A DNA stretch of 64,000 nucleotides, taken from positions 1 to 64,000 of the forward strand of contig NZ_BKDJ01000005.1 in NCBI RefSeq assembly GCF_008580665.1. Reading direction: 5' to 3'. This stretch comes from Zafaria cholistanensis (lineage in GTDB: Bacteria; Actinomycetota; Actinomycetes; Actinomycetales; Micrococcaceae). Made by a program: the position numbers and the translations under genes. A model generated the notes under the pieces. It was not told the origin of the DNA and did no database searches. It saw only the letters and a list, made by a program, of their open reading frames with translations. Below are positions 7,879 to 15,948 of this stretch, one piece after another; positions within the stretch are counted from its first letter, which is position 1, and each line of letters begins with the position of its first letter.

Positions 7879-9129
7879 ATGACCTCCACCCGGCAGGACT
7901 CCGCCGCTCCGGACAGCGCTGCGCCCCAGGGCGCCCTTTTCCCGAACGCCGACGCCCCGGGCCCGGCGAACCGGGACGCGGCAAACCCCGACACGGCGGA
8001 CGGGGAGATGGTGCAGTTGCTCGACCAGGACGGTGCCCTGCGCGCGGATCCGGACTTCTCCGGCTACATCTCGGACGTCGATGCGCAGATGCTGCGTGGT
8101 TTTTACCGAGACATGGCGCTGACCCGGCGCTTCGACCAGGAGGCGACCGCGCTTCAGCGCCAGGGCCAGCTGGCGCTGTGGGTTCCGCTGCGGGGCCAGG
8201 AGGCCGCGCAGATCGGCTCGGGCCGGGCTACCCGTTCCCACGACTACATCTTCCCCACCTACCGGGAGCACGGCGTTGCGCTGACCCGGGACGTGGACTT
8301 CCCGCAGATGCTGCGCATCTTCCGTGGCATCTCCAATGGCGGGTGGGATCCGCGGGAGAACAACTTCCACATGTACACGATGGTGCTCGCGGCGCAGGTG
8401 CCCCACGCCACCGGCTACGCCATGGGGATCCAGCGGGACCAGGCCGGCTGGGACCGGGCGCGCCTGGAGCGGGAGGGCACCGCCGTCGTGGCCTACTTCG
8501 GCGACGGCGCCTCCTCGGAGGGCGACGTCCACGAGTCCATGGTGTTCGCCTCCAGCTACAAGTCCCCCGTGGTGTTCTTCTGCCAGAACAACCAATGGGC
8601 CATCTCCGTGCCGACCCGCGTGCAGTCCCGGATCCCCCTGGCCGAGCGGGCCAGGGGCTACGGGTTCCCCGGCATCCGCGTGGACGGCAACGACGTCCTC
8701 GCGGTCCTGGCCGTCACCCGCTGGGCCCTCGAGCGCGCCCGGCGCGGCGAGGGGCCGGTGCTGATCGAGGCGTTCACTTACCGCATGAGCGCGCACACCA
8801 CGGCGGACGATCCCACCAAGTACCGGCTCTCCGCGGAAGAGGAGTCCTGGGCGCCCAAGGACCCGCTGGTCCGTCTGGAGAAACACCTGCGCTCGGCGGG
8901 GCACGCCGACGACGCGTTCTTCGAGCAGGTCGCCCGCGCCGGGGACCAGATGGCCGCACGCGTCCGCGAGGAGGCACTGGCCTTCCCGGACCCCACGCTT
9001 GAGGACTCGTTCAACAACGTCTACGCCGAAGCGCACCCCCTCATCGCCGAGGAACTGCGCTGGCACAAGGAATACGAGGCCGGGTTTGCGCAGAGCCCGG
9101 CAGAGGCCGGCCAGGAGGGCGCCCGATGA
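7879..9129 (+). CDS. bkdA: 2-oxoacid dehydrogenase E1 component, alpha subunit (branched-chain type)
   Basis: 416 residues. The ThDP-binding motif begins GDGASSEGD at residue 208 and ends QNNQWAIS with N237, as in the heterotetrameric E1 family. Other conserved blocks are TRRFDQEATALQRQGQL, the HDYIFPTYREHG region and YRMSAHTTADDP. With E1beta it decarboxylates a 2-oxo acid and transfers the acyl group to the lipoyl arm of E2. The alpha/beta E1 plus one E2 with no E3 resembles the actinobacterial BkdABC module for valine, leucine and isoleucine oxo acids; pyruvate as substrate cannot be excluded. The stop overlaps the next start (ATGA). Confidence 0.87.
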   Translation: MTSTRQDSAAPDSAAPQGALFPNADAPGPANRDAANPDTADGEMVQLLDQDGALRADPDFSGYISDVDAQMLRGFYRDMALTRRFDQEATALQRQGQLALWVPLRGQEAAQIGSGRATRSHDYIFPTYREHGVALTRDVDFPQMLRIFRGISNGGWDPRENNFHMYTMVLAAQVPHATGYAMGIQRDQAGWDRARLEREGTAVVAYFGDGASSEGDVHESMVFASSYKSPVVFFCQNNQWAISVPTRVQSRIPLAERARGYGFPGIRVDGNDVLAVLAVTRWALERARRGEGPVLIEAFTYRMSAHTTADDPTKYRLSAEEESWAPKDPLVRLEKHLRSAGHADDAFFEQVARAGDQMAARVREEALAFPDPTLEDSFNNVYAEAHPLIAEELRWHKEYEAGFAQSPAEAGQEGAR

Positions 9130-10100
9130 CCACGATGACCATCGCCAAGGCGATCACGGCCGGCTTGCGCCGGGTCCTGGAGCAGAATCCCAAATCCCTG
9201 CTGATCGGCGAGGACATCGGCAAGCTGGGGGGCGTCTACCGCGTCACCGAGGGGCTGCAGGCCGGCTTCGGCGAGGACCGAGTGGTCGATTCCCCGCTGG
9301 CCGAGTCCGGCATCATCGGCACCAGCATCGGGCTGGCCCTGCGCGGCTACACCCCGATCGCGGAGATCCAGTTCGACGGCTTCGTCTTCCCGGCCTTCAA
9401 CCAGATCACCACGCAGCTGGCCAAGATGCGCTCCCGCAGCGAGGGCCGCTTCGGCGCGCCCGTGGTGATCCGCATTCCCTACGGCGGCGGCATCGGGTCG
9501 ATCGAGCACCACTCCGAGTCGCCGGAGGCGCTGTTCGCGCACACGGCGGGCCTGCGCATCATGGTTCCGTCCAACGCCCACGACGCCTACTGGATGATCC
9601 AGGAGGCGGCCGCCTCCCAGGATCCGGTGATCTTCTTCGAGCCCAAGCGCCGCTACTGGCTCAAAGGCGAGGTGGACACCGAAAACCCGGCTCCGCCGGC
9701 CGCCGCCGCGCAGGTGGTCCGGCCCGGGCGGGACGCGACGATCGTTACCTACGGGCCGCTGGTGCCGGTGGCGCTGGCCGCCGCCGAGGCCGCCCAGGAG
9801 GACGGGCGCAGCGTCGAGGTCGTGGACCTGCGCTCGGTCAGCCCGATCGACTTCGACACCGTCGTCGAATCCGTGGAGAAGACCGGCCGGCTGGTGGTCA
9901 CGCACGAGGCCCCGACCTTCGGGGGGATCGGAGGGGAGATCGCCGCGCGCGTCTCGGAGCGCGCGTTCCTGTCCATGGAGGCCCCCGCCATCCGCGTGGG
10001 CGGCTTCCACATGCCCTACCCGGTCTCCAAGGTGGAGGACCAGTACCTGCCGGACATCGACAAGCTGCTCGATGCCCTTGACCGTTCGTTCGCCTACTAG
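9126..10100 (+). CDS. bkdB: 2-oxoacid dehydrogenase E1 component, beta subunit (branched-chain type)
   Basis: 324 residues, standard E1beta length. It starts with the conserved MTIAKAITAGLRRVLEQNP region, followed by GEDIGKLGGVYRVTEGL, DSPLAESGIIGTSIGLALRG and EIQFDGFVFPAFNQI, all typical of the transketolase-like pyrimidine-binding domain; the C-terminal transketolase domain contains VEVVDLRSVSPID and THEAPTFGGIG. It forms the alpha2beta2 decarboxylase with the preceding gene product. Four-base overlap with bkdA and 9 bp before bkdC show a single transcription unit. Confidence 0.9.
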   Translation: MTTMTIAKAITAGLRRVLEQNPKSLLIGEDIGKLGGVYRVTEGLQAGFGEDRVVDSPLAESGIIGTSIGLALRGYTPIAEIQFDGFVFPAFNQITTQLAKMRSRSEGRFGAPVVIRIPYGGGIGSIEHHSESPEALFAHTAGLRIMVPSNAHDAYWMIQEAAASQDPVIFFEPKRRYWLKGEVDTENPAPPAAAAQVVRPGRDATIVTYGPLVPVALAAAEAAQEDGRSVEVVDLRSVSPIDFDTVVESVEKTGRLVVTHEAPTFGGIGGEIAARVSERAFLSMEAPAIRVGGFHMPYPVSKVEDQYLPDIDKLLDALDRSFAY

Positions 10101-10109
10101 GAGCATCCC

Positions 10110-11561
10110 GTGAGCACGTTCAACCTGCCCGACGTCGGCGAGGGCCTCACCGAGGCGGAGATCGTTTCCTGGAAGGTGCAGCCCGGGGACACCGTGGCCA
10201 TTAACCAGGTCTTCGTCGAGATCGAAACCGCCAAGTCGCTCGTCGAGCTGCCCAGCCCGTTCGCCGGCACCGTGACCGAACTGTGCGCGGCGGAGGGGCA
10301 AACGCTGGAGGTGGGCCAGCCGCTGTTCGTGGTGGCCGAGGCCGCGCCCGCGCCCTCCGGGGCCGCGCAGCCTGCCCCGGCTCCTGTCCGGTCGCACGAC
10401 ACCGACCCGGAACCCGGCATCCTCATCGACTCCCACGCGCTCGTCGAGGGTGCCGACGCCGGGGCGGCCCCGCTGGTCGGCTCCGGTCCGAAGGCCGACC
10501 CGGTGCGGCGCCGTCCCCGCCTGGGACGCCCTCCGGTCGTGAAGGCGCCAGCGGCCAAGGCTCCGGCCACGGCGACGGCCAGCGCTGCGCCGGCCGCTCA
10601 CTCGCCCGCCGCTTCCGGCGCGGCCGGCGCGGCCGCCGTCGTGCGTTCGGCGGGACCGGCCATGGCCTCGATCCTCAACCGCGTGCTGGCCAAGCCGCCC
10701 GTGCGCAAGATCGCCAAGGAACTGGGCATTGACCTGAGCAAGGTGCGCGGCACCGGAGGCGGAGGGGAGGTCACCCGCGAGGACCTGATCTCCTACCAGG
10801 CCCAGCGCGAGGCGGAGCAGGCGGCGGCCCCCACCTTCTGGTCCCACGGGGAGCAGGAGGACCGGATTGAGCGCCAGCCCGTCAAGGGCGTGCGCAAGGC
10901 CACCGCCAAGGCGATGGTCGAATCCGCGTTCACCGCCCCGCACGTGAGCATCTTCGTGGACGTCGATGCCTCGCGCACCATGGAGTTCGTGCAGCGGCTC
11001 AAGAAGAGCCGCGACTTCGAGGGCATCAAGGTCTCCCCGCTGCTGATCCTGGCCAAGGCGGTGATTTGGGCGGCCGCGCGCAACCCGAGCGTGAACGCGA
11101 GCTGGGTCGAGACGGAGAACGGCGCGGAGATCCACGTCAAGCACTTCATGAACCTGGGCATCGCGGCCGCCACCCCGCGGGGGCTCCTGGTGCCGAACCT
11201 CAAGAACGCGCAGGACCTGTCCCTGAGGGAACTGGCCATTGCCCTCAACGAGTTGGCGACCGCCGCCCGCGAGGGCAGGACCAGGCCCGCGGACATGCAG
11301 AACGGCACCCTCACGATCACCAACATCGGCGCCCTGGGCATCGACATCGGCACCCCCATCATCAACCCGGGCGAGGTCGCGATCGTGGCGTTCGGCACCA
11401 TCCGGCAGAAGCCGTGGGTGGTCTCCGGGGAGGTCATCCCGCGCTGGATCACCACGCTGGGTGGATCCTTCGACCACCGAGTGGTGGACGGGGACCTGTC
11501 CGCCCGGTTCATGGCGGACGTCGCCGCCATCATGGAGGAGCCGGCGCTGCTGCTGGACTAG
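10110..11561 (+). CDS. bkdC: Dihydrolipoamide acyltransferase (E2) of the 2-oxoacid dehydrogenase complex
   Basis: 483 residues with one lipoyl domain (residues 1-76, lipoylated lysine K42 in ETAKSLVE), an Ala/Pro-rich flexible linker, a peripheral-subunit-binding domain around 190-230 ([27 protein letters not shown]) and a catalytic acyltransferase domain from about 250. The active-site DHRVVDG carries H456 and D460. It takes the acyl group from E1 and passes it to CoA; E3 must be encoded elsewhere. A GTG start follows TAGGAG by 5 nt. The single lipoyl domain fits branched-chain complexes better than the multi-lipoyl SucB/AceF of actinobacteria. Confidence 0.9.
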
Positions 11562-12685: not shown

Positions 12686-13369
12686 TCAGTGGCGTGCGCG
12701 CTCGGCCGCGCGCACGCCGTCGATGATTTGGGTTTCCGAATCGTTGAGGTAGTCGTTCATCAGGGCGGTCGCCTCGTCGCGGCGACCGGCAAGAATGAGG
12801 TCGGCGATCTGGCGGTCGCGTCCCACCCACTGGATCTGGAACGCGCTCTCGTCGGGCATGACGGCGAACGCAAGGCGCAGCTGCGCGACCAGGTTGTGGA
12901 AGAAGGCGTCCACGCGCGTGGAGCCGGCCATGCGGACCACGGCCCGGTGGAAGTCCAGGCTGGCCGTCGCGGCCCGGTTCCAGTCCCCGGACAGCACGTG
13001 CTGCTCGCTGGCGGAGGCGGCCTGGTCCACGTCCGCCAGCAGGGCGTCGGGGGCCGAGGCGCTCTTCAGGATGGCCCCGGTCTCCAGCAGCCGCCGGGCG
13101 GTGTAGATGTCGTGGACGTCGCCGGTGGTCAGGGTCCTGACTGAGTAGCCGGCATTGCGCACCGACGCCACCAGCCCATCCGCGGCCAGCAGCCGCATCG
13201 CCTCGCGCACCGTGTTGCGTGAGACGCCAAACTCCTCGGCCAGCGCCTGGTCCACCAGCCGCTGGCCCGGCAGCAGCCGGCCTTCGCTGATGTGTTGGCG
13301 CACCGAGGCCTGCACCGCCTCGGCGGCAGTCGCTGCGGGCTGGCCTGCCCGGGGTGTGTCAATGGTCAT
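12686..13369 (-). CDS. GntR-family regulator, FadR/FCD subfamily
   Basis: 227 residues. An N-terminal winged helix (about 20-80) contains GRLLPGQRLVDQALAEEFGV and SRNTVREAMRLL, the GntR recognition helix. The C-terminal all-helical FCD ligand domain (95-225) shows RRLLETGA, DFHRAVVRMAGS and later histidine/aspartate positions used for metal and carboxylate ligands in this subfamily. Such regulators are usually repressors released by a small organic acid or amino acid. It is divergent from the fused ABC transporter, and matching palindromes lie in both promoters, so autoregulation and control of the transporter are likely. Start at 13369 has a -10 box 6 nt upstream (leaderless). Confidence 0.88.
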   Translation of the reverse strand: MTIDTPRAGQPAATAAEAVQASVRQHISEGRLLPGQRLVDQALAEEFGVSRNTVREAMRLLAADGLVASVRNAGYSVRTLTTGDVHDIYTARRLLETGAILKSASAPDALLADVDQAASASEQHVLSGDWNRAATASLDFHRAVVRMAGSTRVDAFFHNLVAQLRLAFAVMPDESAFQIQWVGRDRQIADLILAGRRDEATALMNDYLNDSETQIIDGVRAAERARH

Positions 13370-13375
13370 GCCATG

Positions 13376-13402
13376 AGCGTATCAGTGTTCAACAATTGTT
13401 CG
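13376..13402 (-). promoter_or_regulatory. gntR promoter with palindromic operator
   Basis: TACGCT (reverse strand, 13376-13381) lies 6 nt from the gntR ATG. Upstream of it, in the -35/-10 spacer region, is the palindrome AACAATTGTT (13391-13400) within GAACAATTGTTGAAC. The octamer ATTGTTGA is shared with the operator of the divergent transporter promoter. Confidence 0.6.
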
Positions 13403-13496
13403 CCAAAACCATCACCAGCCGTACGGCCCCGATTGTTTCCGTCGCGTAAAAACGCGCGAATACAGGCTAAATCTGTGTTTCGCACGCGGCGCGGCG

Positions 13497-13526
13497 TTGA
13501 CAAGATTGTTGAGCAATCTGTAGATT
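13497..13526 (+). promoter_or_regulatory. Promoter of the fused ABC transporter with operator filling the spacer
   Basis: A consensus -35 TTGACA (13497-13502) and a -10 TAGATT (13521-13526) are separated by 18 bp. The spacer is almost entirely the palindrome AGATTGTTGAGCAATCT (13503-13519; 6-bp arms, 5-bp centre). The ATG at 13534 begins 7 nt after the -10 box, so the mRNA should be leaderless. A protein bound here would directly block RNA polymerase; the adjacent GntR/FadR protein is the obvious candidate. Confidence 0.75.
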
Positions 13527-13533
13527 CCCCGGC

Positions 13534-15948
13534 ATGACTTGGACCACATTAGCGCGCCGGGCCCGGCAGGCTGGAGCAGCCCTGCTGGCGGCGCTGACAT
13601 TCGCGGCGCTCCCGCTGGCCAGCGCCCAGGCAGCTCCCGCGGACAACGGCACGCTGCGGATCGGTACGGACCTTACCTACCCTCCCTACGCCTACCTCAA
13701 GGACGGCCAGCCGGCGGGCTTCGACCCCGACTTTATGGACGCCCTGACGGCGGAGCTGGACATGCGGCCGGAGTTCGTGGACACCCGCTTTGAGCAGCTG
13801 ATTACCGGCCTGAAGGCCGGCCACTTCGACGTGGTGGCCTCCGCCCTGTACATCACGCCCGAGCGGGCCGGCGAGGTGGAGTACATCCCCTACTTCACCA
13901 CCGGCAACTCGATTGTCCGGCCGGTCTCCGCGGCCCCGGTCGCCGACGCCTCCGGCCTGTGCGGGCTGAGCGTGGCCGTCATCAAGGGCGGTGACGTGGC
14001 CAACCAGCTGCGCGGCACCGCCAGCGAGCAGTGCGTGGCCGACGGCGGCCGGGCCATCGACGTGCGCGACTTCACCGCCGACTCCGAGGGCACCCAGGCG
14101 CTGCTGGCCGGCCAGGTCGACGCGCAGGTGACCGACGCGGCGGTGGGCAAGACCGCAGTCGACAGTTCCGGCGGCAAGCTGGCGATTACCAGCACGGAAC
14201 TGCTCTTCCCGGTTCCGGTGGGCCTGGCGGTGGCCAAGGGCAACGACGTCCTGGCCCAGCAGCTGCGCGACGGCGTGGCCGCCATGAAGGCCAGCGGCGC
14301 CTACCAGCAGCTGCTGGACGGCTACAACCTCGCCGAGCCCAGCGACGGGCAGGTGGCGTTGGCCCTGGGCAGCCAGCCCGGGGCCGTGGACGGGGAAGGA
14401 GGCGCGGAAGGGGACGGCTTCAGCTTCGACTGGCGCTACCTGGCCAGCCTTTTCGGTCATAAGGACTTCTGGAACGCGGCACTTACGGTGATCGTGCTCT
14501 CGGCGCTGGCCTGGGGAATCTCGCTGGTCCTGGGCATGCTGGTGGCGCTGGGGCGCGAATCCCGCCTGCCGTGGCTGCGCAAGGTCCTGGACGTCTACGT
14601 GTGGTTCTTCCGTTCGCTGCCGCTGCTGGTGCTGCTGATCTTCACCTACAACGCCCCCCAGGTGATCCCCGAACTGCGGGTGATTGTGGGCTCGCCCTTC
14701 ATGGCCGGCCTGATTGCCATGGTGCTCTCCGAGACCGCCTATATCTCCGAGATCCACCGCGGAGGCCTCTCCGCCGTTGCCGGCGGCCAGGGCGAGGCCG
14801 GGCGCGCGCTGGGCATCCCCTGGCGCGGGGTGCAGCGGCACATCGTGATCCCGCAGGCCTTCCGGGTGGCGCTGCCGGCACTGGGCAACGAGCTGGTGAC
14901 CATCATCAAGCTGACCTCCCTGGTTTCGGCCATTTCCCTGACCGAGATCCTGCTGGTGGGCCAGCGGCTCTACACGCAGAACTTCAAGGTGCTGGAGACG
15001 CTGCTCGCCGTCGCCCTCTTCTACGTGCTGCTGGTGACGGTCTTCGACCAGGCGCTGAAGCTCCTGGAACGCCGCCTGGACGTCCGGCGCCGCGGGCTGC
15101 GGGCCAAGGTCCACGCGGGCCTGGCACAGGCGGACGAGGTTCCGGAGCCGGCTGCCCGCGTGGGGACCCCGCATGCCGGCGAGGTGGTCCTCGAGGCCGC
15201 CGGTGAGCGCAAGTCCTTCGGCGAGACCGAGGTGCTCAAGGGCGTGGACCTGAAGGTGCACCGGGGAGAGGTCGTGGCCGTGATCGGCCCGTCCGGCTCC
15301 GGGAAGACCACCATGATCCGCACCCTGAACGCCATGGAGACCATCGACTCCGGCGACGTGCTCTACCGCGGCAATCCGGTGGGCTACCGGCACACTCCCG
15401 GCGGACCCAAGCGCGTGTCCGACCGCGAGCTGGCCCCCACGCGCGAACACATCGGCATGGTCTTCCAGCAGTTCAACCTGTTCCCGCACAAGACCGTGCT
15501 GGAGAACGTCACGTTCGCGCCCGGCTACCTGGGCAAGGGGGCTCCCGCGGAGGTCCGCGAGCTGGCACTGGCCCAGCTGCGCAAGGTGGGCATGGCCGCG
15601 CACGCGGACAAGTACCCCCACCAGCTCTCCGGCGGCCAGCAGCAGCGCGTGGCGATCGCCCGGGCCCTGGCGATGAACCCGGAGGCCATCCTCTTCGACG
15701 AGCCCACCTCAGCGCTGGACCCGGAGCTGGTGGAGGAGGTGCTGAAGGTGATGACCGAGCTGGCGGCCGAGGGCCTGACCATGGTGATGGTCACCCATGA
15801 GATGCGCTTTGCCCGCGAGGTCGCGGACTGGGTGGTCTTCATGGACCAGGGCGTGGTCGTGGAGGAGGGGCCGGCGGCCGAGCTGTTCGGCAATCCGCAG
15901 CACGAGCGCACCCGCCGGTTCCTTTCGCGGGTCATGGTCGCGAGCTGA
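13534..15948 (+). CDS. Single-chain polar amino-acid ABC importer: substrate-binding protein, permease and ATPase fused
   Basis: 804 residues combining three usually separate proteins. Residues 1-33 form a signal peptide/anchor (hydrophobic [16 protein letters not shown]). About 37-270 is a family 3 solute-binding domain ([24 protein letters not shown]). About 310-520 is a HisM/GlnP-type permease with several membrane segments, including [13 protein letters not shown] and the EAA loop [10 protein letters not shown]. About 550-800 is the ATPase: Walker [10 protein letters not shown] at 585, signature LSGGQQQR at 698, Walker [12 protein letters not shown]. The binding domain is outside and the ATPase inside, consistent with topology. 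It probably imports an amino acid or related cation controlled by the divergent GntR protein. Confidence 0.9.

Follow-up and report, generated by a model that had tools for sequence, protein, structure and literature searches.

A palindrome in the promoter spacer of a one-chain ABC importer gene is a predicted operator of the adjacent, PxpR-type GntR regulator in Zafaria cholistanensis

The window analyzed here is a stretch of 64,000 nucleotides from Zafaria cholistanensis (contig NZ_BKDJ01000005.1, designated G000:C5, from a genome of 3.29 Mb). It contains a gene for a GntR/FCD regulator and, 164 nt away and divergently oriented, a gene for a one-chain ATP-binding cassette (ABC) importer. We propose that a 17-bp palindrome in the importer promoter, O1, serves as an operator for the GntR/FCD repressor encoded next to it and belongs to a PxpR-type switch, an explanation to which, as a whole, we assign a probability of about 0.82. 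The PxpR-type assignment is suggested by operator identity, phylogenetic grouping and gene links: the dyad agrees with the published PxpR site at all but one of its 17 positions, the regulator groups with PxpA-linked GntR proteins, and the importer gene runs into pxpA-pxpBC in three relatives. Judged from sequence, the system is thus a variant of a described switch that acts on an unusual module consisting of a one-chain ABC importer and a DUF1989 protein.

Direct reading of positions 13497-13526 confirmed that the hexamers TTGACA and TAGATT flank the dyad AGATTG-TTGAG-CAATCT, as a previous sequence-only reading had stated. The dyad lies directly 3' of TTGACA and is separated from the −10 hexamer by a single G (position 13520). 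The operator was said to fill the spacer exactly; it does lie within the spacer, but this measures 18 nt, of which the dyad occupies 17. The −10 hexamer is followed by CCCCGGC (13527-13533) and then, at the 7-nt distance originally noted, by the ATG at 13534; no ribosome-binding site was seen in these 7 nt. Because the ATG is located only 7 nt past the −10 hexamer, the importer transcript is probably leaderless. A promoter scan of positions 13300-13650 returned the importer promoter as the sole promoter-like site (shuffle mean 0.0). An operator inside the promoter spacer is an ordinary design for repressors.

Orthologs of this GntR (E ≤ 1e-40) are rare and were found in 10/395 family genomes, 3/396 order genomes and 3/394 class genomes, with the own genome counted in each sample. 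The own genus was represented by one genome, G000; a search in the genus of G049 gave 3/15 genomes, none of them additional. Of three related loci retrieved, one, L018, is a clear ortholog. In five relatives (loci L009, L010, L011, L012 and L021), the same importer gene faces gntR and the DUF1989 gene, and these loci together with the window make up the six cassettes considered below. All six share a TTGAC[A/T/G] hexamer, an 18-nt spacer holding the dyad, TAnnTT and 6-8 nt to the ATG, and in this block 19/38 columns are invariant; four blocks of equal width further upstream have 1, 1, 0 and 0 such columns. The core of O1 is kept and adjoined by gntR in every cassette. Loss of the palindrome from relatives with the same gene pair had been named beforehand as grounds for abandoning the operator; the core is retained in five out of five.

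Among the articles listed for the core motif, one was evidently relevant. The closest experimentally studied counterpart of O1 is agattgttcaacaatct, the PxpR site in Corynebacterium glutamicum (PMC13274462), which is identical to the complement strand of O1 at 16/17 positions and matches the sites of the relatives at 14-16 of 17. The main text of that article, which published the ligand and the site in 2026, presents PxpR as a 5-oxoproline-responsive GntR repressor of pxpTABC with a helix-turn-helix and a ligand-binding domain. PxpR binds 5-oxo-L-proline with a dissociation constant (KD) of 726 nM, and mutation or deletion of its site raised reporter expression 6.5-fold. The same text describes a putative −10 element upstream of the PxpR site, maps pxpR as leaderless and assigns PxpT to the Nramp family. 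Compared with what is described there, the window shares the GntR regulator, the nearly identical 17-bp operator, a divergent transporter gene and, in relatives, the link to PxpABC, whereas it differs in having a one-chain ABC importer, a spacer operator in both promoters, and pxpABC elsewhere. The published arrangement, divergent from pxpT and beside pxpABC, is found in G034 and partly in G037, G114 and G528, but not in the window.

The operator had originally been called FadR-like. FadR proteins and the window GntR have in common a GntR winged helix and an alpha-helical effector domain, and the dyad deviates by one mismatch from the E. coli FadR operator consensus, which is TnGTnnnACnA-like. 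However, the window GntR scored far below the FadR models (20.4 bits for NF003444 against a cut-off of 189; 20.1 bits for TIGR02812 against 249.2), and its gene context is one of amino-acid lactam use. FadR membership was rejected because of these cut-offs: of the earlier proposal, the operator for the adjacent GntR that overlaps the promoter is retained, strongly supported by the conserved core, the match to a tested site and the helix covariation described next, and its type is revised to PxpR.

A tree of 49 GntR proteins, computed by maximum likelihood and rooted for drawing only, separates 43 proteins, all but L017 operator- or PxpA-linked, from six other GntRs (five paralogs of the own genome and one distant match) with support of 100/99; the 10 DUF1989-linked regulators form one clade nested among the others of the 43. 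The recognition helix reads [V/I]SRNT throughout the 43, except for L013 and L015 (SRNS), L017 (SRST), and L021 (SRHT). Helix SRNT pairs with TTGTTSAACAA. In the SRNS loci L013, L014 and L015 (genomes G110, G140 and G205), the importer-side operator is TGGTTCAACCA in 3/3 cases, and a second, PxpA-linked GntR in each of these genomes keeps SRNT together with TTGTTSAACAA. In L017 (G175:C1:11975-15595), TCGTCCGACGA is present twice, and the gene that follows starts like what we take to be a hydantoinase/oxoprolinase A protein. This covariation of helix and operator is, at the sequence level, the best evidence tying each operator to its adjacent regulator.

PxpA was detected in all 12 genomes of the set tested, i.e., the own genome and 11 with a GntR ortholog (G1001 and G1108 not included). 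In three of the six cassettes (G037, G114 and G528), the genes that come after the importer gene on its strand are pxpA, a pxpBC fusion and one for a biotin carboxylase-carrier protein (BC), as seen from Pfam domains on parts of these genes. The DUF1989-gntR pair of G034 faces Nramp-pxpA-pxpBC-BC, and those of G110, G205 and G658 face an Nramp gene; the facing gene of G140, where no domain scan was made, starts almost like that of G110. In the own genome, contig C4 carries pxpA-pxpBC-BC-gntR, with PxpA and GntR confirmed by Pfam, and a perfect site, TTGTTCAACAA, is located approximately 50 nt upstream of pxpA. We infer that importer and oxoprolinase form one regulon split over two loci. Since the C4 paralog has the helix of the window GntR, and pxpABC is preceded by an identical operator core, the two operons probably cross-regulate each other.

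The motif also stands out from its background. TTGTTSARCAA occurs exactly in two places of the own genome, O1 and the site before pxpA on C4. A weight matrix was trained on 31 GntR-linked sites from other genomes; the core had been fixed at collection, which makes the matrix circular for that core. It ranked the two sites of the gntR-importer region first and second in the window with 23.7 and 16.5 bits, followed by 9.9 bits for the next site, and the best score in 40 random 64-kb sequences was 12.2 bits (independent bases, one strand scored). The core ATTGTTSAACAAT was found at 41 sites in 39/394 class genomes, the own genome included, compared to two for the reversed control. Within stretches of about 6 kb on either side (less at contig ends), a GntR homolog is encoded at 32/41 sites and a PxpA homolog in 24/40 loci. 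At the hexamer offsets seen in the window, the 31 GntR-linked sites outside the own genome show a −35-like hexamer in 19 cases, a −10-like hexamer in 14, at least one in 22, and both on one strand in 11; the means of 76 shifted controls were 3.6, 0.13, 3.8 and 0.03 (maximum for both, 1), and the nine sites lacking a GntR homolog gave 1, 1, 2 and 0. Placement of the operator in the spacer is thus common for PxpR-type regulators and not specific to the window, though not universal.

The divergent gntR promoter likewise holds a dyad, O2, in its spacer. All six cassettes follow the same plan on this side, ATTGTTSAAC[A/G], a −10 hexamer and 6-7 nt to an ATG or GTG, and 15/44 columns are invariant compared to 1/66 upstream. 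Three relatives (L010, L011 and L012) have TTGACA or TTGACT as the −35 hexamer; this element is weak in L009, L021 and the window. The start of gntR is probably leaderless as well, to judge from this spacing. The sequence-only reading had chosen AACAATTGTT as the gntR-side counterpart; it is present at 13391-13400, yet it occurs in the intergenic regions of 0/5 relatives and was discarded. The conserved palindrome, TCAGTGTTCAACAATTG, overlaps AACAATTGTT but differs from it.

These elements suggest how the switch might operate. A GntR dimer bound to O1, between the −35 and −10 hexamers, would exclude RNA polymerase from the putatively leaderless importer promoter, and a second dimer on O2 would impose the same block on the gntR-DUF1989 promoter, likewise putatively leaderless, so that the regulator would limit itself. 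The repressor would be released by a ligand that the ABC importer takes up, either 5-oxoproline or a closely related lactam.

Several observations weigh against the proposed switch or parts of it. In the window, G049 and G027, pxpABC does not lie beside the importer gene. The outer arms of O1 are variable, with 7, 7, 6, 7, 5 and 6 of 8 complementary position pairs in the six cassettes (7 in the window), and one of 11 DUF1989-linked loci (L016 of G034) has no recognizable operator. L021 combines helix SRHT with an unchanged operator, so the helix position is not decisive alone. When one mismatch is allowed, the genome-wide frequency of the motif is near chance (31+28 matches versus 26+19 for the control). 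No GntR homolog (E ≤ 1e-8) is encoded in the fetched stretch at 9/41 class sites, 9/31 GntR-linked class sites lack recognizable hexamers at the expected offsets, and the perfect C4 site of the own genome shows neither hexamer there. Finally, residues of the effector domain differ between the DUF1989-linked and the PxpA-linked regulators, which suggests that the ligand of the DUF1989-linked clade may be a different one, perhaps a relative of 5-oxoproline.

This last point leads to the strongest alternative, which is compatible with the operator assignment and which we rate at somewhat below even odds: the clade regulator would not sense 5-oxoproline, and the importer, the DUF1989 protein and the altered pocket would serve another compound, so that the resemblance to PxpR would be confined to the DNA-binding half. 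Six alignment columns, each shared by at least 9/10 DUF1989-linked regulators and set against at least 80% of the 33 others, separate the two groups. Two of them, D40 and M58, lie in the DNA-binding domain and four in FCD, where the others mostly have N (27) or D (4) for S137, M (28) for F157, H (31) or Y (2) for Q178, and N (33) for D185. In addition, 8/10 DUF1989-linked regulators have RLAFA where many others have RLVFH, and neither the motif loci L092-L129 nor L056-L059 contain a match to DUF1989. On the other hand, the same importer gene directly precedes pxpA-pxpBC in half of the cassettes, and a PxpT-type Nramp gene replaces it in other loci, both of which argue against this alternative.

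A second alternative accepts the operator but has it occupied mainly by the C4 paralog (G000:C4:103115-103756) instead of the adjacent GntR. This paralog, likewise of the GntR/FCD type, shares the SRNT helix of the window GntR and has its own perfect site before its pxpA operon. We nevertheless consider this improbable, because gntR stands beside the operator in all importer cassettes and because operator and helix of the cassettes in G110, G140 and G205 have moved away together from the paralog pair, a change that links the cassette operator to the regulator beside it. A chance origin of the palindrome in an AT-rich promoter spacer is hardly credible: the near-control frequency of one-mismatch matches would fit, but conservation in all cassettes, the first place among sites of the window and the helix covariation speak against it.

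Returning to the PxpR-type switch, its consequence is that a one-chain ABC importer and a DUF1989 protein, both as yet unassigned, become tied to a regulator type with a published ligand and site, which makes both directly testable. An ABC-type route for 5-oxoproline would add to the Nramp- and TRAP-type routes that the discussion of PMC13274462 names; the term "ABC transporter" does not occur in the main text of that article. The paralog pairs, which share a core in the own genome and have diverged in G110, G140 and G205, provide a natural case of regulators becoming insulated. Speculatively, and with doubt as to the scenario as a whole, a PxpR subfamily might have kept its DNA recognition, changed its effector pocket and come to run a new lactam-uptake module, made up of a one-chain ABC importer and a DUF1989 enzyme, that cross-talks via a shared operator with the PxpR/5-oxoprolinase operon, while sister genomes were insulated by a one-residue change in the helix and a matching change in the operator.

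The features of the locus are compiled in Table 1.

Table 1. Coordinates of promoter elements, predicted operators and genes at the gntR-importer locus of the window.
Feature	Position	Strand	Basis or remark
−35 hexamer TTGACA, importer promoter	13497..13502	+	promoter scan; TTGAC invariant in 6/6 cassettes
Operator O1 (predicted), AGATTGTTGAGCAATCT	13503..13519	+	centre 13511; perfect 6-bp arms, 5-bp centre
−10 hexamer TAGATT, importer promoter	13521..13526	+	promoter scan; TAnnTT in 6/6 cassettes
One-chain importer, 804 amino acids: family 3 binding protein + permease + ATPase	13534..15948	+	domain profiles
Weak −35 of gntR promoter, TTGGCG	13401..13406	-	direct reading and alignment of relatives
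Operator O2 (predicted) in gntR promoter, TCAGTGTTCAACAATTG on the + strand	13382..13398	-	centre 13390; second-best matrix site in window; core in 6/6 cassettes
−10 of gntR promoter, TACGCT	13376..13381	-	19-nt spacer; 6 nt to ATG
gntR, 227 amino acids: GntR winged helix + FCD effector domain, recognition helix VSRNTVREA	12686..13369	-	domain profiles
DUF1989 protein, 284 amino acids	11812..12666	-	19 nt past gntR

In the window GntR, PF00392 and PF07729 both score above their cut-offs. The DUF1989 gene is probably co-transcribed with gntR from the O2 promoter; the nearest solved relative of its product is 3di4, named as an uncharacterised protein, and a literature search for DUF1989 together with GntR returned nothing. 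Matches spanning nearly the whole importer were obtained in L018 and L047-L051. The binding-protein domain of the importer looks like those of general amino-acid binders, from which no ligand can be read. Like PDB 6h30, which we take to be a GlnPQ-type importer, the window protein belongs with fused amino-acid ABC importers in having a family 3 binding-protein domain fused to the permease; unlike these, it carries the ATPase on the same chain too. Literature searches gave nothing on an ABC route for 5-oxoproline with a GntR, and none of the matches listed for one-chain ABC importers was evidently on point. Beyond the DUF1989 gene, the genes at 7879-11561 were read, by name only, as 2-oxoacid dehydrogenase E1 alpha, E1 beta and E2.

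Given the one-mismatch frequencies, we claim no regulon member in the genome beyond C4:108145; at C2:221539 and C6:68706 the reading frames were listed, with no further search for a regulon link. The exact ATTGTTSAACAAT sites lacking a GntR homolog (L093, L094, L095, L101, L102, L106, L117, L124 and L129) are either distant regulon members or chance occurrences. In G034 (L054/L016), the gntR and Nramp frames abut and leave no space for an intergenic operator, the result of either a deletion or a misassembly. The C4 pxpA operator is immediately preceded by a reading frame with AtzH-like and amidase domains (L059:10199-12019). In G175, three TTGTTSAACAA operators stand in tandem before pxpA, 24 and 23 nt apart (L175:5847-5904), an arrangement that may allow cooperative repression.
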